Positions 1 to 7,961 of a DNA stretch of 64,000 bases are shown here, piece after piece. A model generated the notes under the pieces. The model searched no databases, was not told the origin of the DNA, and saw only the letters and a list, made by a program, of their open reading frames with translations. A program made the position numbers and the translations under genes. This DNA comes from Runella defluvii (GTDB lineage Bacteria > Bacteroidota > Bacteroidia > Cytophagales > Spirosomataceae): positions 124,001-188,000 of the forward strand of contig NZ_JACIBY010000012.1 in the NCBI RefSeq assembly GCF_014195535.1, in the 5' to 3' direction. The number at the start of each line of letters is the position of its first letter. Position 1 is the first letter of the stretch.

Positions 1-2
1 GA

Positions 3-965
3 TACCTAAATGGCTTGATAAGTCGTACAATTATTGGAGAACATATTGAGCAACCTAGCGGAATAGCCGAGAACCTTCTTTTACAAAGTAATTTTGGGGT
101 AAATTCGGGGTCTGCGCTTGCGCCTTGGGGACATACAGGTGCAAGCACATTCTACGAAGTCCGTAAAATTGGATATGGAGGAGTTAATTTTGTCTCTCCC
201 CACTCAATCCAAGCCATTTTCAGAGCGAACAGCGGCGTTTATCAAGAAATTGACGCTGCTACATTTTCACAACCAAAAAATACGTATTACTATCAAGCAG
301 TAGTATCAACTGAGTATCAATACGGGGGAACAATCACTTTCTTGCTGAAAAACGCTACTACTGGTACTGTGTACGATACATACACCTTAACGGGGGGGAA
401 TAATCCTGTACCATCCGTGAAAACAATAGTAACCCTAGTTGCAACTGATGTCAATGTTGGCGGTAAGTTACGCTTAGAAATATTGAACAACCGAAGTGAC
501 TTAGGTATCCTTAACATATACAGTCAACACGTGGCTAAAAACCCAAATGCCTCGTTTGTAGCTACTTCAACATCAGCAATAACAGGCTATACAGATTGGT
601 CACAGTCTAGCGATATGTTGCGAGTATATGGGCGCTTAATGATTCCGCACAAATCAGATGAAACAGGTAGTTTGGCAACAACGATTGCCGATTATGAGAA
701 TGTAGGAGGTTCAGAGTGGTATGTTTCCAGTACGACAGGACGAGCCAAATATAGGGCTTCAAGCGCATGGAATGAGCTTCCTAACACAGATTTTGGCACG
801 GCAGCCCCCACGACCGGGTCGTGGCCGCGTGGATGGATTCGTTATAATGCAACCCCCGTAGAAGCTGGTACAGCAGGTGCAAAGTATGTCATTGAAGGAT
901 GGCAGTGCATCACTGCGGGAAGCCCAGGTACGTGGTTACAAAAACGTTATTTAACAGGGAACTAA
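3..965 (+). CDS. Tail-fibre/tail-spike-like prophage protein, 5' end outside the window
   Basis: The reading frame is open to the left edge, so the true start is probably outside the window; a TTG at 15 is the first possible start inside it. About 320 residues are visible. The C-terminal 60 residues carry a pattern seen in many tail-spike and receptor-binding proteins: GTAAPTTGSWPRGW, a YNATP turn and then CITAGSPGTW. The middle is beta-rich and low in charge. No membrane segment or enzyme motif is visible. It lies 13 bp upstream of a second fibre-like gene and in the same direction as the holin, so it fits the late tail/lysis end of a prophage. The role as a host-binding fibre is inferred from the C-terminal motif and the neighbours, not from a full-length match. 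Confidence 0.6.
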   Translation, partial: YLNGLISRTIIGEHIEQPSGIAENLLLQSNFGVNSGSALAPWGHTGASTFYEVRKIGYGGVNFVSPHSIQAIFRANSGVYQEIDAATFSQPKNTYYYQAVVSTEYQYGGTITFLLKNATTGTVYDTYTLTGGNNPVPSVKTIVTLVATDVNVGGKLRLEILNNRSDLGILNIYSQHVAKNPNASFVATSTSAITGYTDWSQSSDMLRVYGRLMIPHKSDETGSLATTIADYENVGGSEWYVSSTTGRAKYRASSAWNELPNTDFGTAAPTTGSWPRGWIRYNATPVEAGTAGAKYVIEGWQCITAGSPGTWLQKRYLTGN

Positions 966-978
966 TTCTAAAACAGCA

Positions 979-2928
979 ATGAAAAATCCATTAATCCTTA
1001 TGCTAGGAATGGCGCTCGCTTGTGCCGTTACTGGCTATACACAAAGTACGCAGTCCGAAGCGCAAGCGGCGGTTGACTCGCTGTTGCCCTACAATACTAC
1101 AAAAAGTATTACATCTAGTCGTTTGCGTCAAGCATTTTCAAAGGTGATTAATTACGTTAGAATTGTTCAAAATACGTTAGGAGGAAAGGCAAACTCAATT
1201 CACTCTCATGGATTGACAGATTTGTCACAGTCTGGCGCAACAAATGGTCAAGTTATTGGATGGGGTGGTAATGCCTGGATTCCACGTGATAAAGGCTTTG
1301 TTAGTCCCGAAGATTACGGCGCAATAGGAAATGGCACAGCAAACGATTTATCTGCATTACAAGCATTTTTCAACGCAAACAAAACAGGCAAGGTTGTTCT
1401 TACAAAAGGGAAGAACTACTTTATAGGCACTGGAACGCTTGTGATAGAGGGTTCAGGAAATGAATTAAATAGCCTTACAATTGAAGGATATGGCGCGAAA
1501 ATAACATCTAGCAACCCTGCTACCACAGCAACCGTACTTTTTGACGATTGTATGAGAGTGTCAGTTCGTGGCCTTGAAATAGACGGTACCACCGATTTTG
1601 ATGGTTGGTATTTTGGTGCCATGGAGGATTGCTATCTAAAAAGACTACGATTTGGTAACCAAAATTTAGACACGATAGATGAAACCTATTGGAGCGTATG
1701 GCGCCGCTGCAAAATTGCGAACGGGATTTATATACATACGGGAACGGCAGGGGATAGGACAGAGTTCAACGCAAATAGCTTTTATGACTGTAACATCTGG
1801 TTTGACACCTATGCTTTTCATATCTATGGCAATCAAACAGCTCAGAATTGTAATTTTTACAGTTGTGATATTTCGTACCAAACGGTTGGTCGTATGGAGA
1901 TTGAGCAAGAACTACTCGACTCTCAATTCAATTTTTATTCGTGTTATTGGGATGATGATTTTTCTATCCCAGTGAACACTAAGAATATTGTGATAAATAC
2001 CTACGGGTTTGGTAATAATCCCAATAGCGGAAATATTGGTAGCCATGCTACACTTAAAACAGGAAGTCAGAATGACGTAAGTAGTTCTTATGGAGGTCGA
2101 ACGGGATCACGGATACCAAACTCATCCTACAATCTTATTGTGAACGGTGATATGAAGGCAGGAACTTCACAAATAGCATCGGATTGGGCCAGTATAAATG
2201 TACAAAATGGACATGGTGTGTATCGGAAGTACATTCGATTAACTGACAATACAAGTAGCATAAAAACGACAGAGTGGAAAGCGGTAAAAGCCCCGTTCTC
2301 TGGTTATTATGCTGTTACGATTATAGGGCGTAACGTAGGAGCCACAAACGTAGTATTCTCTAATGTGGTAAACAACGTAGATGTGTATTATAACCCCGTG
2401 TCGGTCAACGATGCAGCCGATTTTGTGGTGTCAACAGGCAAAGTTTTTTTGCAAGCTGGAGACGAATACAAGTTTAGGGTTTTTACTCAAGCAAGTGTAA
2501 ATAATACGCTTGACATTGCCTATGTTGGCCTGACCTATGGCCGAACAGGTGGACTTACGACCGTTTCGCATCCAGAAGCAGGAGCCATTAAAACAATTGA
2601 AAGCTATTACGAAGGCGCTACGGCGGGGACGCTTTTCACGCTACCAATCGCAGTCAATGAGCGTATTTCGGCAAAATGCACCTGTTATGGCGCTGACCCT
2701 ACTTACCCTGACGGGGCCACCTTCAATGAATCGGTGATTGTAGCAAGTAGAAGTGATACCCAGTACACGTATTCAATCACTCCTCAAACTACGGTGAAGA
2801 CAGGAGCAATCTCAGCCGCTCCCTCTTTTAGCTTGACCGAAAGCGGTGGCGTACTATCAGTGATAGCTACTCCAAGCGATGGACTGATTAGGCTAAATTG
2901 TGAGTTGAAAGGAGTTTTTAAGCAATAA
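979..2928 (+). CDS. Tail-spike-like protein with pectate-lyase-type beta-helix and an N-terminal signal peptide
   Basis: 649 residues. Residues 1-22 form a convincing export signal (KNP, then a hydrophobic run LILMLGMALACAVTGY). Residues 35-62 (LLPYNTTKSITSSRLRQAF) resemble the short adaptor segment found in Bacteroidota phage fibre proteins. From about 108 (SPEDYGAIGNGTANDLSALQAFF) a pectate-lyase-3-like start leads into a right-handed beta-helix up to about residue 350, the usual body of tail spikes that bind or cut surface polysaccharide. The C-terminal 250 residues look like beta-sandwich modules. A signal peptide is unexpected for a tailed-phage structural protein, which normally assembles in the cytoplasm. 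It could instead be a secreted depolymerase carried by the prophage. The fold is well supported; the substrate is unknown. Confidence 0.65.
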   Translation: MKNPLILMLGMALACAVTGYTQSTQSEAQAAVDSLLPYNTTKSITSSRLRQAFSKVINYVRIVQNTLGGKANSIHSHGLTDLSQSGATNGQVIGWGGNAWIPRDKGFVSPEDYGAIGNGTANDLSALQAFFNANKTGKVVLTKGKNYFIGTGTLVIEGSGNELNSLTIEGYGAKITSSNPATTATVLFDDCMRVSVRGLEIDGTTDFDGWYFGAMEDCYLKRLRFGNQNLDTIDETYWSVWRRCKIANGIYIHTGTAGDRTEFNANSFYDCNIWFDTYAFHIYGNQTAQNCNFYSCDISYQTVGRMEIEQELLDSQFNFYSCYWDDDFSIPVNTKNIVINTYGFGNNPNSGNIGSHATLKTGSQNDVSSSYGGRTGSRIPNSSYNLIVNGDMKAGTSQIASDWASINVQNGHGVYRKYIRLTDNTSSIKTTEWKAVKAPFSGYYAVTIIGRNVGATNVVFSNVVNNVDVYYNPVSVNDAADFVVSTGKVFLQAGDEYKFRVFTQASVNNTLDIAYVGLTYGRTGGLTTVSHPEAGAIKTIESYYEGATAGTLFTLPIAVNERISAKCTCYGADPTYPDGATFNESVIVASRSDTQYTYSITPQTTVKTGAISAAPSFSLTESGGVLSVIATPSDGLIRLNCELKGVFKQ

Positions 2929-2932
2929 TAAC

Positions 2933-3415
2933 ATGAAAGAACACATGATTGAATTCGTACAGTTCAACACGAAGTTGACGACGATATTGGCCGCGTCTAT
3001 TTTGACGATACTGAAGCAATTTATTATTGAGCACGTTTTCTCAGATGTGCAGTTCCTGATAGGAATCACCCTGCTTTTCACACTCGATAACTTATCAGGA
3101 ACCGTAAAGGCATTTGTAAAAGGAGAGTTTGACTTACCCACATATTTCAAAAAAACAATTGTAAAAATTGCTGCTTATGCGTTTTTCATTGGAGGTGTCG
3201 GAATCTTGCTGAAAATGAAAGTTGACAACCAAAAAGCAGAATGGATTCAGTGGGTTGATGATTATCTCTACATGGGGGTAGCGTTGGCAGAATTTTGGAG
3301 TATTGTGCAGAATATAAATGCTATCAGCCCTGGCTTATTACCATCTTGGATTACCAAATTATTCAAGGACGCTGCGGAAAAAGGCCAACTCTCTAAACCT
3401 ACTTTTACGCCATGA
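2933..3415 (+). CDS. Phage holin family protein (phage_holin_4_1/TcdE-like)
   Basis: 160 residues with three or four hydrophobic segments (roughly 13-33, 38-60 and 75-95, plus a weaker one near 105-125). The middle part, TLLFTLDNLSGTVKAFVKGEF followed by a FKKTIVKI helix, matches the layout of the TcdE/Bacteroidota holin family, in which a short charged loop with an invariant D precedes the last helices. Holins form holes in the inner membrane at the end of the lytic cycle. The start lies 4 bp after the upstream stop and the end overlaps the next gene by 4 bp (ATGA), so the lysis genes are translationally coupled. No peptidoglycan hydrolase gene is visible next to it; the endolysin may lie left of the window. 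Confidence 0.75.
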   Translation: MKEHMIEFVQFNTKLTTILAASILTILKQFIIEHVFSDVQFLIGITLLFTLDNLSGTVKAFVKGEFDLPTYFKKTIVKIAAYAFFIGGVGILLKMKVDNQKAEWIQWVDDYLYMGVALAEFWSIVQNINAISPGLLPSWITKLFKDAAEKGQLSKPTFTP

Positions 3416-3639
3416 AACGGTTATTCATTCTTGCATTTTTGTTCACTGGATGTGTAACAAAAAAACAAATACTTTCTGAAATAAGAAGTTACAAAGCGTC
3501 TCAAGATTCCATTCTCAATCACCAAAAAATAATGTACAGCTATGAAAAATCAAGGATTGACTCTGTGTATAATCACATTACTGACGATGAACTTTTGCGT
3601 CGGATTGATTCCATCACACGCCCAAAACCAAAAAATTAG
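3412..3639 (+). CDS. Small lipoprotein, candidate outer-membrane spanin (Rz1-like)
   Basis: 75 residues. It opens with MKRLFILAFLFTGC, a short lipoprotein signal with the acylated Cys at position 14. The rest is a polar, mostly helical tail (residues 18-70) ending in PKPKN. It starts inside the last codons of the holin gene (ATGA overlap). Its final 98 bp overlap the start of the next gene in another frame. Size, lipobox and out-of-frame overlap behind a holin are the hallmarks of o-spanins, which link to an inner-membrane partner and fuse the outer membrane during lysis. The assignment is by architecture and position only; spanins diverge too fast for motif recognition. Confidence 0.55.
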   Translation: MKRLFILAFLFTGCVTKKQILSEIRSYKASQDSILNHQKIMYSYEKSRIDSVYNHITDDELLRRIDSITRPKPKN

Positions 3640-3898
3640 CCTTGAAAGAGCGCAATTGATTGAACTGACAAAAAAAGCTGAAAAAGCGGCTTTGTACGAG
3701 TCTGAGAATACCAGTTTGATTGTTCAGAATTACAACCTTAAAGCTTCCGAGACAAACCTACAAAAGGAGCTTGAAGCAGCTCGAAACGATGCTGAAACAT
3801 TCAGAAAACAGCGAAATCAAAATCGGTGGGCGTTAGCGGGGTTGCTTATCGCAATTGCAACCAGTATTGGATTCAAAATCAAAAAACACATTCGATAA
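3542..3898 (+). CDS. Signal peptide, coiled coil and C-terminal membrane anchor protein, candidate spanin partner
   Basis: 118 residues. Residues 1-27 form a signal-like hydrophobic stretch ending SHAQ, a plausible signal peptidase site. Residues 33-93 are a charged heptad-like coiled coil (many E, K, L, N). Residues 96-111 (WALAGLLIAIATSIGF) are a membrane helix followed by the positive tail KIKKHIR. The first 98 bp lie inside the preceding lipoprotein gene in a different frame. A classical i-spanin is anchored at its N-terminus; here the membrane helix is at the C-terminus, so the coil would project to the periplasm from the opposite end, if the N-terminal signal is cleaved. The stop overlaps the next start (TAATG). 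Confidence 0.55.
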   Translation: MKNQGLTLCIITLLTMNFCVGLIPSHAQNQKISLERAQLIELTKKAEKAALYESENTSLIVQNYNLKASETNLQKELEAARNDAETFRKQRNQNRWALAGLLIAIATSIGFKIKKHIR

Positions 3899-4359
3899 TG
3901 TTACCCGAAGAAACCCTTACATACGAAGATTGGATTGGCGTAGGTACCAATCCGACCAATACCAACACGACCACCGATACGTCAAGCCCATTTTTTAACA
4001 TCAACGGCGGTGGTTCGTCGGGGAGTAGTAGCGGGGGAAGTTCGGCAGGAAGCGGCACCACTACCACAACAACTAGCCCGTTTTTCAACATCAATGGCGG
4101 CACGTCGTCGGGAAGTAGTGGCGGGATTTTTGGCTCACTGAGTTCATTGCTAGATAAAGCGTCGAGCCTGGCACTTACTGCACCGAAGCCCGAAGAGAAA
4201 AAACAGGAAGAAAAAAAGCCTGAAACCCCAACCGCCGCACCCGTGGCCGTGACAGTCCCCGAACCAGCGCCGACCATTAAGCCGTGGATGTGGTACACGG
4301 GAGCCGCCGTTTTAGGATTGGCCATTATTGGCACGTTTATTTATTTCCGAAACCGATAA
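3898..4359 (+). CDS. Ser/Gly/Thr-rich protein with duplicated SPFFNINGG motif and C-terminal membrane helix
   Basis: 153 residues from the ATG at 3898, which shares its first base with the previous stop (TAATG); a longer frame from 3826 would run through the upstream gene and is less likely. An acidic N-terminus (LPEETLTYEDWIG) is followed by low-complexity Ser/Gly/Thr stretches, within which SPFFNINGG occurs twice, about 40 residues apart. Then come a GSLSSLLDKASSLAL helix, a Pro/Glu/Lys-rich linker and a final membrane helix (WMWYTGAAVLGLAIIGTFIYF) with a basic end. I do not recognise a family. The order of flexible region, linker and tail anchor, within a lysis/virion gene row, suggests a membrane-tethered phage protein, but this is inference. 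Confidence 0.6.
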   Translation: MLPEETLTYEDWIGVGTNPTNTNTTTDTSSPFFNINGGGSSGSSSGGSSAGSGTTTTTTSPFFNINGGTSSGSSGGIFGSLSSLLDKASSLALTAPKPEEKKQEEKKPETPTAAPVAVTVPEPAPTIKPWMWYTGAAVLGLAIIGTFIYFRNR

Positions 4360-4374
4360 ATTTGAAATACAACC

Positions 4375-4557
4375 ATGAAAAAGAAAACCACGACCACCAA
4401 ACGCAAAGCGACCGCCCAAAACAAAAAATTTGGAGCCAAAGCAAAACGCACCAACGAACTTGCATTTACGCAAGCTTACTTGGACGGGAAGAAAGGCAAC
4501 CGCATCAAGTCGCCTAAAGCCTACTTGAAAGCCGCGGCAAGCCGCGTTTGGAAGTAA
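4375..4557 (+). CDS. Very basic 60-residue protein, unknown function
   Basis: 60 residues, about a third Lys or Arg, starting MKKKTTTTKRKATAQ and ending AAASRVWK. No cysteine, membrane segment or signal peptide is present. It follows the tail-anchored protein by 15 bp and is closed by a strong hairpin terminator at 4561-4599, so it is the last gene of the late prophage transcript. Such small basic proteins in phages often bind nucleic acid or sit in the capsid, but nothing in the sequence proves this. The gene call rests on position, ATG start, spacing and the terminator directly after the stop. Confidence 0.55.
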   Translation: MKKKTTTTKRKATAQNKKFGAKAKRTNELAFTQAYLDGKKGNRIKSPKAYLKAAASRVWK

Positions 4558-4560
4558 CTC

Positions 4561-4599
4561 AAACAAAAAAGCCGCTCGGTATGAGCGGCTTTTTTGTTT
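4561..4599 (+). terminator. Terminator closing the prophage late transcript
   Basis: A 17-bp perfect stem (4561-4577 with 4583-4599) encloses a 5-base loop, with AAAAAA on the left arm and TTTTTT on the right. It lies 4 bp after the stop of the small basic gene and separates the lysis/structural genes from the cargo unit that follows. Confidence 0.85.
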
Positions 4600-4665
4600 G
4601 CCGTTTACTCAGTTTTGTTGTTGTTCCGATTTGTTATAACTAACTTTTGGCCTAAATACTTTAAC

Positions 4666-5823
4666 ATGAGAACGGTTTTATTATTCTGCCTTTTATTGTC
4701 ATTTCAAGCGATAGCCCAGGACAAAGGCGACTTGATTTTTATCTTTCAGAAAAGTAAATATGAGTTTGTTAGCAAGCAAATGGAGCAAACGCAGTTGCTA
4801 GAAAGTTTTCGTCGTCACGCCAATTACACTCTTTCTTTCCCTCGTGATATACCCGTATATTTTTGTGATTGTGGTATTGAAAATGCGTTTTATCAGCCTA
4901 TTGGTAATGGTGGTTATATTAAAATGTGTTATGAGTATATCAATGCCATGTTTAATAAACTAATTCAAAAGAACGGTAAGGATGAAGCAGGCATAAAATT
5001 GGCGGCATCGGCGGTATTGGTTCTCTACCATGAATTAGGTCATGCCATAGACCATCAATTTGATCTAGCAACGACTGGGAAACACGAAGATTTAGCGGAT
5101 GAATTTGCATTATGGCTTTTGTTAAAACATCCAGCGGCTGAAACCCAAAAAATTGCTTACTACTCCATCCTAAACTGGTACTACTCAGCCAAATCATTAG
5201 AAAATGCCATTTTTATGGGAAGGGCTAAATACGCCGATACGCATTCACCGTCTTTAGAGCGTTATTTTACCCTTTTGTCATTATTTTGTGGGTCAAACAT
5301 GAACCGTGCTTACCAATGGCAATTAATCGGTGATGATATTTTTAAGCCTTACCAATTGCCTTTATCGAGAGCAAAAAGGTCAAAGGACGAATATGAAAAC
5401 TTTATTAATGACTGGAAAAGGGTGTTGGGGCCATTCTTAAAGTCAAATAGTTCAAGTACTGATACACAATATGCCGCTGTCGATACAGTTGTTGCCCCAT
5501 CAAGGCATTATCAAATACATCCAAGTCAACTCCAAAACACAAGTACAGGTAAGGTCGGTGTAGCTCTAAATGTAACAGGTTTTGGATTTGGGCAAAGGCC
5601 ACCTGTCAACGATACATTTAACGAGTCAGGACGAATTACGTTCCAAATTACTGTCGATGAAATTGGTAACATCACTGGTATAAGAACGAAAGAATCAACC
5701 GTAAGTGAAAAGGTTGTCGAATTATACAAACAAGCCGTTTTGAAAATGAAGTTGGTACCAAAGTCTGACAATGTACTTTCTACTTCCCAAGGAACAATTA
5801 CTTTTAACATCAAAGGTCAATGA
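4666..5823 (+). CDS. Secreted DUF4344-type zinc metallopeptidase with a TonB-C-like C-terminal domain
   Basis: 385 residues from the ATG at 4666, chosen because it gives a clean signal peptide (RTVLLFCLLLSFQAIA, cut before QDKGD); an upstream in-frame start at 4594 lies in the terminator. The zinc motif HELGH is at 122-126 and a second conserved block HEDLADEFALWLL at 140-152 supplies the likely third ligand. The preceding CGIENAFYQP and MCYEYIN segments match the DUF4344 pattern. The last 85 residues (GRITFQITVDEIGNITGI, then KLVPKS and GTITFNIKG) resemble the TonB/AgmX C-terminal fold, unusual after a peptidase. The gene overlaps the next by 4 bp. It is a monocistronic-start unit between phage lysis genes and the integrase, a typical cargo slot. 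The substrate is unknown. Confidence 0.7.
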   Translation: MRTVLLFCLLLSFQAIAQDKGDLIFIFQKSKYEFVSKQMEQTQLLESFRRHANYTLSFPRDIPVYFCDCGIENAFYQPIGNGGYIKMCYEYINAMFNKLIQKNGKDEAGIKLAASAVLVLYHELGHAIDHQFDLATTGKHEDLADEFALWLLLKHPAAETQKIAYYSILNWYYSAKSLENAIFMGRAKYADTHSPSLERYFTLLSLFCGSNMNRAYQWQLIGDDIFKPYQLPLSRAKRSKDEYENFINDWKRVLGPFLKSNSSSTDTQYAAVDTVVAPSRHYQIHPSQLQNTSTGKVGVALNVTGFGFGQRPPVNDTFNESGRITFQITVDEIGNITGIRTKESTVSEKVVELYKQAVLKMKLVPKSDNVLSTSQGTITFNIKGQ

Positions 5824-6404
5824 AAAAAGTTGTTTTTTTTGCTGTTGTATTATTTATTTCAAGTTGTGCCGAATTACATCAAAAACAGTCCCCAAAAGGT
5901 GATACAACAAAAGTTTTAAATGTGGTCAAATCCATTCATTTTAAAAGTTTGAAAGAAAGTAGCTTTGGAAAAGTTGATTTGTCTGAAAATGATTCTACTA
6001 TCGAAGCAAATTACTTACCTTCTAATTTTGATGTTACCATTGATTCTTTGGAAAGGCAGTTTGGCACATATACCGTATATAAGAAACAAGTCTATTTCGC
6101 CGACTTAAACGGTGATGATATGATAGATGCCTTAGTAGAATTCAGTTTTAACCCTTACGGTGGGAACGGGTTTCAGTCTTATTTCGGAGTTCTTATCAAT
6201 AAAAAAAACGATTATTTTTTAGTTGACTCTTTAAATTCGGGAAGCCATTGTGGTGAGCCGATTTTAAAGATAGATTCAATATCAAATTTGAAGATTTATG
6301 CAAGCGGCCTCGCATATCGTCATAATGACAGTTGTTGTTGTCCAACTGAGCCCATAAAACGACAATATGTGTTAAAAAACAATAAAGTTTTGATGATTAA
6401 ATAA
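5820..6404 (+). CDS. Lipoprotein of unknown function coupled to the metallopeptidase
   Basis: 194 residues. The start is MKKVVFFAVVLFISSC, a lipoprotein signal with the acylated Cys at 16. Near 95-104 lies DLNGDDMIDA, a short calcium-loop-like pattern seen in FG-GAP/VCBS-type repeats, followed by an aromatic beta stretch (GGNGFQSYFGVLI). A CCC run sits near the C-terminus. The ATG overlaps the stop of the metallopeptidase gene by 4 bp, so the two are translated together and probably act at the same site outside the cytoplasm. It could be a partner, an immunity protein or a substrate-binding subunit. No family is recognised. Confidence 0.7.
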   Translation: MKKVVFFAVVLFISSCAELHQKQSPKGDTTKVLNVVKSIHFKSLKESSFGKVDLSENDSTIEANYLPSNFDVTIDSLERQFGTYTVYKKQVYFADLNGDDMIDALVEFSFNPYGGNGFQSYFGVLINKKNDYFLVDSLNSGSHCGEPILKIDSISNLKIYASGLAYRHNDSCCCPTEPIKRQYVLKNNKVLMIK

Positions 6405-6438
6405 AAAACAGCCCCGCCAATCTGACGGGGCTGTTTTT
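6404..6438. terminator. Bidirectional terminator between cargo lipoprotein and integrase
   Basis: A 13-bp stem (6404-6416 with 6426-6438) has AAAAA on one side, TTTTT on the other and a 9-base loop. It sits between two convergent genes, so it can end transcripts from both sides. Confidence 0.85.
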
Positions 6439-6458
6439 GTTATACGGAGTTGGTACCT

Positions 6459-7646
6459 CTAAATAAGCCCATTTCTACGTAAATCACTCACGATTGAAGA
6501 AGTGAGCAATTTGGCATAATGCTTTTCAGTAATTTTGATTGACTTATGCCCAAGTATTCGTGACACGGTTTCAATCTTTAGCCCAACATTCAGTAAGTAC
6601 ATGCCTGCCGTACGTCTTGCTAGGTGTGTTGTAAATTCATCAATCTTTTCGGCCTCAAAGCCTGCAATTCTAGCCGCTTCTTTTAGATACTCATTCATCT
6701 TTTGATTTGTGATAACGGGTAAATTGTAATCGTACTTTTCCAGTAATTGACGAGCCGAGACAAGCAATGGTATTGAACTTAATTCAGTTGTTTTGCCACG
6801 ATAAATCATAATCCACGTAATACCTTCATTGTCAACATGAAGGTGCTTTTTGGGCGAAAAAAGCAAAAGTTCATTGTAAGCCATCCCTGTGTATGCCTGA
6901 AAACAAAAGCAATCTACGGTTCTTTGTAATCGGTCATCATAAAAAGGGCATTTTGCAAATTTTTCGAGTTCATGTTTATTTAAGTAGCTCAATGGCTTTT
7001 GTTTTGATCGAGCGACCTTTAGTGACTTCGTCGCATTATATGGCAAAGCACCCTCAACCACCGAATAATCCATAATTCTTTTTACCGCTTGTACCGCACG
7101 TGCGGCATGGCTAAGGCTATTTTTAAGGTTTTTGATATGGTATTCGTAATAATCTTTTAACCATCTTGGAGTTACTTCAACCAATTCAATGTCTTTTCTT
7201 TTGAGGACACTTTCAATGTAAGTTTGAAGCATAGCTCTACGCGAATACCATGATTTCATGGTGCTTGGATTCAGCGATATACTCAAGTCTTGAATGCACT
7301 TGTCGTAAAAAGCCAAAAGGCAAGATTGGACAATTGGCGTCTTTTTGGTGTATAGTTGTTTGATGATTTGAGCCGTAATGGCTTTTTCCTGTTTGCGTAG
7401 GTCGTTGAAAATTTCTGTTAATTCAGCCCTGATTTGGGTGAGGCGTTCATTTTTTTGCCTCACATCTTCCGAATACCCTTTGATAGATTGTTGTTTATGT
7501 TGCCAGTCATCGGGGAAACACGCAATCCCTGTAGCAAAGTCGGGTGCGCATATTCCGTCAACCCTAATTCTGCAATACAAATAGTGAATTTCTGCCTTGG
7601 AGGCATTTTTTTTTGAGCGGATTTTGAATCTAACGCGGAAAGACAT
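6459..7646 (-). CDS. Tyrosine recombinase/phage integrase
   Basis: 395 residues. The N-terminal part (to about 100) is the arm-binding, integrase-SAM-like region usual for Bacteroidota elements (RVRFKIRSKKNASKAEIHYLYCRI). The catalytic domain runs from about 220 to 385. Visible catalytic residues are H341 and R344 (THLARRT), H367 (ILGHKS) and the nucleophile Y377 (EKHYAKL). The place of the first catalytic Arg reads TGMAYNEL, without Arg at the usual spot, as in many Bacteroidota integrases. The start ATG at 7646 is 242 bp from the 3' end of a tRNA-Arg gene. The enzyme therefore most likely integrated the element at left into that tRNA and can excise it. Confidence 0.9.
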   Translation of the reverse strand: MSFRVRFKIRSKKNASKAEIHYLYCRIRVDGICAPDFATGIACFPDDWQHKQQSIKGYSEDVRQKNERLTQIRAELTEIFNDLRKQEKAITAQIIKQLYTKKTPIVQSCLLAFYDKCIQDLSISLNPSTMKSWYSRRAMLQTYIESVLKRKDIELVEVTPRWLKDYYEYHIKNLKNSLSHAARAVQAVKRIMDYSVVEGALPYNATKSLKVARSKQKPLSYLNKHELEKFAKCPFYDDRLQRTVDCFCFQAYTGMAYNELLLFSPKKHLHVDNEGITWIMIYRGKTTELSSIPLLVSARQLLEKYDYNLPVITNQKMNEYLKEAARIAGFEAEKIDEFTTHLARRTAGMYLLNVGLKIETVSRILGHKSIKITEKHYAKLLTSSIVSDLRRNGLI

Positions 7647-7830
7647 TCTTTTTTACGATTGACATGATTTTGAACAATAAAGGTTAAATCAGCCAGAGCT
7701 ATCAAAAACCCTACAAAAAGGCATAAAAAAATTTAGAATTTAGTAAACGGTCATGTATCCGTTTTAGAAGAACAACGCACCTGATTTTGGGGTACTTTTC
7801 GTTGATTTATGTAGAAGGAGATTATAACAA

Positions 7831-7855
7831 AAAAGCCCTCAAATTGAGGGCTTTT
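7831..7855 (-). terminator. Terminator of the tRNA-Arg transcript
   Basis: A near-perfect inverted repeat, AAAAGCCCTCAA with its complement, gives a GC-rich stem followed by TTTT on either strand. It lies 33 bp beyond the 3' end of the tRNA on the minus strand. Confidence 0.75.
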
Positions 7856-7887
7856 AGGCTAAAACAGTGAGCTATTTTGCTCTTTCG

Positions 7888-7930
7888 TGGTCACGTAGGG
7901 ATTCGAACCCCAAACCTTCTGATCCGTAGT
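7888..7930 (-). other. Probable prophage attachment site (3' half of tRNA-Arg)
   Basis: Inference from arrangement: a tyrosine recombinase gene sits next to the 3' end of an intact tRNA, with phage genes on the same side. The crossover core should be a stretch of the anticodon-to-T-arm sequence. The second copy, which would define the element's other end, is expected left of the window and cannot be seen, so the exact core is unknown. Confidence 0.45.
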
Positions 7931-7961
7931 CAGATGCTCTATCCAATTGAGCTACGCAACC
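7888..7961 (-). tRNA. tRNA-Arg (anticodon ACG)
   Basis: A 74-nt cloverleaf reads on the minus strand. The acceptor stem GGTTGCG pairs with CGTGACC (two wobble pairs) and the discriminator base is A. The D arm is GCTC...GAGC, the anticodon stem is TCTGA/TCAGA with loop CTACGGA (anticodon ACG, which inosine modification lets read CGN codons), and the T arm is centred on TTCGAAT. The CCA end is not encoded. The gene's 3' end points towards the integrase, the usual arrangement when a tRNA is an integration target. Confidence 0.95.

Follow-up and report, generated by a model that had tools for sequence, protein, structure and literature searches.

Do two overlapping genes behind a holin gene of Runella defluvii form a spanin pair whose inner-membrane subunit is anchored from the opposite end? 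The inner subunits of canonical two-component spanins are anchored at their N-terminus. In the Rz/Rz1 order, the inner-subunit gene comes first, and the lipoprotein gene is nested in it or lies after it. A sequence-only reading of the window, which is the whole stretch of 64,000 nucleotides analyzed here, had described a 75-residue lipoprotein gene that overlaps by 98 bp, in another frame, a gene for a protein with a signal peptide, a coiled coil and a C-terminal helix, and had suggested a spanin pair of opposite topology.

Layout of the Gene Pair

The features of the pair and of the adjoining genes in the window are as follows.

2933..3415, plus strand: holin, PF05105 Phage_holin_4_1, 160 aa (Pfam and PHROG)
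3412..3639, plus strand: ORF1, 75-aa lipoprotein, proposed outer-membrane subunit, start ATG
3451-3453, plus strand: proposed lipid Cys14 of ORF1 (lipobox motif)
3542..3898, plus strand: ORF2, start ATG, 118 aa, proposed inner-membrane subunit anchored at its C-terminus
3542..3639, plus strand: 98-bp dual-coding overlap in +1, where the C-terminal part of ORF1 and the whole ORF2 signal peptide are encoded
3542..3622, plus strand: ORF2 signal peptide, proposed cleavage between A27 and Q28 (read from the sequence as a hydrophobic stretch followed by polar residues, profile A1 alignment)
3626..3817, plus strand: proposed periplasmic helix of ORF2, resembling a coiled coil, with 34% charged residues and neither Pro nor Cys
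3827..3898, plus strand: membrane-type segment at the C-terminus of ORF2 (residues 96-114; hydropathy), followed by the basic tail KHIR and the stop
3898..4359, plus strand: ORF3, Ser/Thr/Gly-rich and low-complexity, with a C-terminal membrane-type segment (read by eye)

The 98-bp overlap of the lipoprotein gene was confirmed by these coordinates and by the lipobox FLFTG-C14, with ORF2 in the +1 frame relative to ORF1. ORF2 started 130 bp inside ORF1, and its first 32 codons fell within the overlap. The position directly behind a holin gene also held: the holin matched PF05105 above the curated cut-off (E 4e-5; 24.1 bits against 22.2) and PHROG 199 (E 1.6e-5), and its stop and the ORF1 start had 4 bp in common (ATGA). 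The gene order, which the earlier reading had not mentioned, was reversed relative to Rz followed by Rz1.

The ATG of ORF3 overlapped the ORF2 stop (TAATG). By eye, its position was taken by other genes in homologous loci, and ORF3 was left out of the proposed device because it was absent beside the pair there. A putative metallopeptidase gene (4666-5823; PF14247 DUF4344, E 1.3e-41) and a gene for a lipoprotein-like protein (5820-6404) lay between the lysis genes and the integrase. These two are perhaps cargo genes.

Predicted Properties of the Two Proteins

ORF1 consisted of a short signal ending in FLFTG-C14 and a 62-residue mature part beginning at Cys14, with helices predicted at 17-53 and 58-69 (AlphaFold2, pLDDT 79, pTM 0.40). 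No Pfam match to the window ORF1 was obtained up to E 1. The motif scan used a PS51257-type lipobox pattern for both ORF1 and ORF2. A lipobox of this type was present in 10/10 ORF1 homologues, a motif result that depends on a non-ATG internal start in four of them; the G075 copy was scored from an ATG 26 codons before the Cys. Seven columns were invariant over the ten sequences: K2, C14, K46, I49, D58, L61 and P71. The motif evidence suggests that ORF1 is lipidated and located in the outer membrane.

For ORF2, the signal peptide, coiled coil and C-terminal helix of the earlier reading were borne out as two hydrophobic ends (hydropathy) and a long charged helix predicted at 26-117 (AlphaFold2, mean pLDDT 82, pTM 0.40). 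The topology of both proteins was assigned from hydropathy and motifs. The lipobox scan was negative in all ten Runella-group ORF2s. The KD19 value of the C-terminal segment ranged from 1.49 to 2.84 over ten loci, with a net charge of +1 to +2 behind it. The window copy had the lowest value and was moderately hydrophobic; it was a weak segment with basic residues on both sides. A crude Hessa sum was unfavourable for the C-terminal segment in five of the ten copies.

The weakness of this segment in some copies bears on the possibility that the N-terminal segment of ORF2 is uncleaved and serves as an inner-membrane anchor, either alone or together with the C-terminal one. In that case the pair would still be a spanin, with a double or a normal anchor. 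The N-terminal stretch had KD19 values of 1.68-2.39 in 10/10 loci and was long enough to span a membrane. However, it ended in small residues followed by Gln or Ser, namely PSHA/QNQ in the window (slash, proposed cleavage), with LPA/QSQ and SQA/QKA in other copies and similar endings in most rows of the A1 alignment. This pattern is common in cleaved signals of Bacteroidota. The uncleaved form is thus considered unlikely, and ORF2 is more probably exported by a cleaved signal and held in the inner membrane by its C-terminal segment.

Evidence for Coding in Both Frames

The window was compared with the homologous locus G095:C5. Before the overlap, changes in ORF1 fell at 1, 2 and 9 of 31 codons at positions 1, 2 and 3; behind it, those in ORF2 fell at 22, 14 and 44 of 86 codons. 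This bias toward third positions outside the overlap is the pattern expected of coding sequence and points to coding in each ORF. Within the overlap, the shared position (second of ORF1, first of ORF2) showed 0/31 differences against both G095:C5 and the viral contig described below. The second position of ORF1 before the overlap showed 2/31 and 1/31, respectively. Third-position differences of ORF1 were 8 and 9 of 31 in the overlap versus 9 and 9 before it. The position counts alone did not prove selection on ORF2 in the overlap, since 0/31 was not clearly lower and third positions were not clearly slowed.

A randomisation was also performed, in which the synonymous codons of ORF1 were shuffled according to the codon usage of the window, in 20,000 rounds for each locus. 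An open +1 frame that equalled or exceeded the native one in hydrophobicity arose with P 0.0001-0.0324, below 0.033 in 10/10 loci; these values are not independent, since the loci are related. The hydrophobic export signal in the overlap thus appears to exceed chance, and unlike the position counts the randomisation points to selection on ORF2 there. In most copies, the acidic DD(E/D)L motif of ORF1 coincided with the L(T/M)M core of the ORF2 signal in the +1 frame.

It is hardly credible that one frame is real and the other open by chance. The probability of an open frame alone was 0.15-0.64 per locus in the same randomisation, and the overlap position counts were indecisive. This explanation is already largely refuted by the third-position-biased changes outside the overlap in each ORF and by the retention of a hydrophobic signal in 10/10 loci. 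Selection on a single frame, which had been named as evidence against the pair, was not seen; the results indicate that both frames are coding. The Runella pair would be a clear-cut example of one stretch of bases serving two exported proteins.

Recurrence in the Runella Group

A profile search had been recommended as a check. The pair was found in all ten Runella-group loci. Nine lay in 7 of 13 genomes of the genus, where they were detected by the ORF2 profile A1, and the tenth was on the viral contig IMGVR_UViG_3300026302_000096. At all ten, ORF1 came first and ORF2 followed in the +1 frame with an overlap of 92-125 bp (98, 98, 92, 113, 113, 122, 125, 125, 110 and 98 bp), an internal ATG being chosen as the ORF2 start where a longer TTG frame exists. 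Both genes were kept in 9/9 genome loci, so homologues keeping one gene without the other, the second finding that had been said to speak against the pair, did not occur among them.

Single-sequence searches of 200 family genomes matched 6 genomes with ORF2 and 8 with ORF1. The latter included G152, a weak ORF1 match with internal stops and no pair. The pair in G103 was missed by the single-sequence ORF2 search and found by profile A1. A second viral contig, from the profile A2 search, carried the same sequence as the Runella limosa locus G095:C6. A scan of genome_contigs with ORF2 gave one relative, a Runella limosa locus (NZ_KI519424.1, Runella limosa DSM 17973), and the protein database held eight ORF2 relatives, the window's own included.

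Searches of 390 order genomes with each of the A1 and A2 profiles gave only weak extra matches (E 2.1e-4 to 9.7e-4); only 11-13 candidates were scored for most listed genomes, and distant relatives may be missed. No holin-linked nest was found in the weak matches that were read (L042, L044 and L054, and L055 and L058 on both strands), and L042 was a longer coiled-coil lipoprotein. The other weak matches (L043, L045-L047, L051-L053, L056 and L057) lay in long open frames of 272-771 aa.

In five of the ten loci (G086, G119, G134, G000:C14 and G075; L022, L023, L024, L025, L026), ORF1 was the in-frame end of a holin-like ORF with two membrane segments. No Pfam family exceeded its cut-off in the three of these fused ORFs that were tested. 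A free lipoprotein at the five loci needs an internal start, which is non-ATG in four. An NTG codon (TTG, ATG and GTG) lay exactly 26 codons before the lipid Cys in G000:C14, G075 and G134. This is suggestive of a possible internal start, by which holin and outer subunit might be made from one frame.

The fusion argues against a two-chain membrane-disrupting device and is in keeping with a pair that regulates the holin or endolysin, as an antiholin-like periplasmic sensor, and does not disrupt the outer membrane. The 4-bp overlap with the holin gene in the window, or with the endolysin gene in G095:C6, fits such regulation as well. However, a lipoprotein is unnecessary for this role, and u-spanin-like genes occur at lysis loci elsewhere in the phylum. 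A purely regulatory pair is therefore quite unlikely in our estimate, somewhat less likely than the uncleaved anchor.

Lysis and Prophage Context

The clearest lysis cassette was that of the Runella limosa tailed prophage G095:C6. Its order was a PF05105 holin (E 9.9e-13), an M15_4 endolysin (E 1.2e-14; PHROG endolysins to 2.4e-28) and ORF1/ORF2, the start of ORF1 sharing 4 bp with the end of the endolysin gene. Close by on the same contig was a tape measure gene (PF10145, E 2.5e-27). In the window and G095:C5, a PF05105 holin preceded the pair, so the recurrence behind holins that the profile check was to reveal was found at these loci, and with holin plus endolysin in G095:C6.

Two features marked the end of the window prophage.

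6459..7646, minus strand: tyrosine integrase at the prophage end (PF00589, E 3.6e-11)
7887..7901, no strand assigned: 15-bp direct repeat of att type within tRNA-Arg (7887-7961); its other copy lies at G000:C12:100277

From the integrase beside tRNA-Arg and the two repeat copies, the prophage was delimited to about 31.6 kb (G000:C12:100277-131887; window 1-7901 together with L029 and L030). It contained a rolling-circle Rep (PF23343, E 5.2e-11), a weak packaging-ATPase-like match and an LPD1 protein. The sole endolysin candidate found in it was an SLT lytic transglycosylase (PF01464, E 1.3e-10; L029 12728-13246). Its end lies 10.2 kb upstream of the pair, which counts against the device reading. 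A row of seven small proteins, each with a membrane segment at the C-terminus, was encoded at L029 8371-12074. By eye, six of them had no export signal, and the one at L029 9047-9367 began with a hydrophobic stretch. A capsid protein was not identified in this prophage, and the PDB sequences gave nothing useful for its capsid and ATPase candidates. The prophage is possibly that of a tailless, membrane-containing phage.

In such a phage, ORF2, with ORF1, might be a virion membrane protein. The row of seven C-terminal-membrane ORFs, the rolling-circle Rep and the membrane-type segment at the C-terminus of the adjoining ORF3 are consistent with this. On the other side, the same pair stood behind an endolysin gene in a prophage with a tape measure, and ORF2 has an export signal that six of the seven row proteins lack. 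A virion role was therefore judged very unlikely. Restriction of the pair to membrane-containing phages was ruled out by the G095:C6 pair beside the tape measure gene.

Nested Pairs and u-Spanin-Like Genes at Other Lysis Loci

The flanks of PF05105 holins were surveyed at E <= 1e-4 in 395 phylum genomes and 200 family genomes. Matches were obtained in 10/395 phylum genomes (13 loci) and 11/200 family genomes (14 loci). The survey is lossy, since the window's own holin (G000) was unmatched in both genome sets. In flanks of about 1.5 kb, ORFs with an ATG start were read together with their hydropathy; the flank ORFs shown were those ending at or past locus position 1300 in one reading and, for minus-strand loci, 1000 in the other.

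Five of the 13 phylum loci (L072, L080, L081, L083 and L084) had a single gene with a lipobox and a C-terminal membrane segment, which was weak in L072 (KD18 1.38). A nest was not seen in any of the 13, and eight had neither a nest nor the u-spanin layout. These u-spanin-layout genes, in the same neighbourhood at lysis loci, support the device reading of the Runella pair. The 14 family loci comprised five in which a nested pair preceded the holin (L085, L086, L087, L095 and L096, enlarged as L099-L103), two known Runella loci (L088 and L098), five in which the holin was followed by an N-anchored helical protein (L090, L092, L093, L094 and L097), and L089 and L091, which had an ORF with an N-terminal hydrophobic stretch. 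In L085, the first gene of the pair came into view on enlargement. The N-anchored proteins were 127-139 aa long with a basic C-terminus (e.g., ARKKRKFL), and no partner was seen. They are possible inner spanin subunits of another type.

From the annotated collection, five of 126 records matched by the M15 endolysin were read, together with both holin-matched records. The u-spanin layout was present in Riemerella phage PT33 and Elizabethkingia phage TCUEAP1, and a nested pair in Cellulophaga phage phiSM. Flavobacterium fF4, Flavobacterium 1/32 and the two holin-matched records showed neither layout clearly. The second ORF of phiSM matched 15 records, all Cellulophaga phages, and had no relative in viral_contigs. 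The nested pairs of two Cellulophaga phages were located as follows.

L069 3489-4041: phiSM nested pair, annotated as hypothetical proteins
L071 2317-2869: phi13:2 nested pair, annotated as hypothetical proteins

In both, the annotated second CDS starts downstream of the ATG used here. Like the Runella pair, the Cellulophaga pair was in +1 with an overlap of exactly 98 bp, its second ORF had an export signal, a helix and a C-terminal hydrophobic end, and in phiSM it was directly behind an M15 endolysin. The phi13:2 pair lay one small ORF behind a GH108-type gene annotated as glycosyl hydrolase (PF05838), not M15. The first Cellulophaga ORF differed in having an N-terminal membrane segment and no lipobox, and the second in carrying a lipobox-like motif.

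The pairs of L099-L103, five loci in four other family genomes, likewise had a +1 overlap (110-128 bp), and their second ORF combined an export signal with a helix and a C-terminal segment. They lay immediately before the PF05105 holin, and ORFs resembling M15 peptidases by eye followed the holin in L102 and L103. Their first ORF differed from that of Runella, with an N-terminal membrane segment and without a lipobox.

All seven outside pairs were in +1 with overlaps of 98-128 bp. The randomisation gave P <= 0.002 in five of them, the exceptions being L100 (0.096) and L101 (0.145), which are similar copies from one genome. The first ORF lacked a lipobox in 7/7, and a lipobox-like motif was found in the second ORF of only the two Cellulophaga phages. 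Homology between the Runella and outside pairs was not accepted with hhalign P 0.0033 (ORF2 versus Cellulophaga). Nor was it accepted for ORF2 versus L099-L103, where P was 1.9e-4 over the C-terminal part only, with 47% probability. The second ORFs of L099-L103 and Cellulophaga gave P 0.0019. The ORF1 comparisons gave P 0.014, 0.15 and 0.014 (0.014 for ORF1 versus Cellulophaga), and the ORF1-versus-ORF2 controls 0.014 and 0.027. The nested layout thus recurs at lysis loci, by descent or by convergence, without demonstrable sequence homology to the Runella pair.

Proposed Function of the Pair

The pair is best read as a spanin-like two-chain device for outer-membrane disruption with a C-terminally anchored inner subunit, a reading that we hold to be moderately probable. 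ORF1 would carry a lipid on Cys14 and thereby be kept in the outer membrane. ORF2 would be exported via a cleaved signal peptide, reach across the periplasm as a long helix and remain in the inner membrane by means of its C-terminal segment. The helices of ORF1 and ORF2 may bind each other across the murein mesh. When holin and endolysin had removed the murein, the complex would collapse, the inner and outer membranes would be joined and the envelope would open. The device would be the mechanical equivalent of a T1 gp11-type u-spanin divided between two chains. Since the same bases encode both the C-terminal end of the outer subunit and the signal that exports the inner one, the two would be inherited together and are probably translated together.

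The spanin pair of opposite topology that had been suggested is therefore retained as the best-supported reading, with a lipobox in 10/10 ORF1 and 0/10 ORF2, a C-terminal membrane-type segment in ORF2 and a position beside holin and endolysin genes. It leaves the lipobox-less outside nests unaccounted for: the first gene in 7/7 outside pairs is not explained by plain pairing of an outer and an inner subunit.

Comparison with Known Spanins

The Runella pair was compared with lambda Rz/Rz1. Common to both were a lipoprotein (by motif, 10/10 ORF1), a membrane partner with a helical or coiled-coil periplasmic domain (predicted for ORF2), a +1 nest and a place beside holin and endolysin. In contrast to Rz/Rz1, the Runella lipoprotein gene was first in 10/10 loci, the lipoprotein was not Pro-rich, and the partner had an export signal and a hydrophobic segment at the C-terminus in 10/10 ORF2 (hydropathy) as its proposed anchor. 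To our knowledge, no two-component spanin with a C-terminally anchored inner subunit has been described.

Sequence searches gave no significant match to the Rz family. PHROG 13 'Rz-like spanin' matched the window ORF2 at E 0.07 and 2/14 ORF2 members at best at 0.03, and PHROG 4306 matched 3/14 members at best at E 0.016. Families of unknown function scored better for ORF2 (phrog_3671, 0.00024), and Rz membership via PHROGs was rejected because E values of 0.016-0.07 were weaker than these. None of the 13 PHROGs matched by ORF1 was named as lysis. Among PDB sequences, A1 matched only unrelated coiled coils (E >= 0.19) and A2 nothing up to E 1; in annotated phages, neither window protein was matched by tblastn up to E 1. 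Owing to the anchor, the gene order and the lack of a significant family match, the Runella pair was not filed under Rz/Rz1. It is a spanin-like variant and not a member of that family.

The T1 gp11-type u-spanin and the u-spanin-like genes found here (L072, L080, L081, L083, L084, L066 and L068) have the same combination of a lipid and a C-terminal membrane anchor in a lysis cassette. In the Runella group, these features were split over two overlapping ORFs in different frames in 10/10 loci, and a single-chain u-spanin was ruled out on this ground.

Arguments about the spanin mechanism draw on systems in which the inner subunit goes into the membrane with its N-terminus leading. If the Runella pair works with its anchor at the opposite end, it would serve as a test of whether helix pairing, parallel or antiparallel, and anchor direction matter for membrane fusion. 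It would also offer a concrete route between one-chain and two-chain spanins and suggest how Bacteroidota phages open the outer membrane. A broader reading is offered tentatively, as a possibility toward which we do not lean. One nested layout, in which a +1 overlap of about 92-128 bp encodes the second protein's export signal, may have been kept in Bacteroidota phages while the anchors were permuted between lineages. In Runella prophages the anchors would be a lipid on the first protein and a C-terminal helix on the second; in other family prophages, an N-terminal helix and a C-terminal helix; and in Cellulophaga phages, an N-terminal helix on the first protein and, on the second, a C-terminal helix together with a possible lipid. 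The Runella form would then be a two-component spanin whose inner subunit is inverted, and would stand naturally between the u-spanins and the two-component type.
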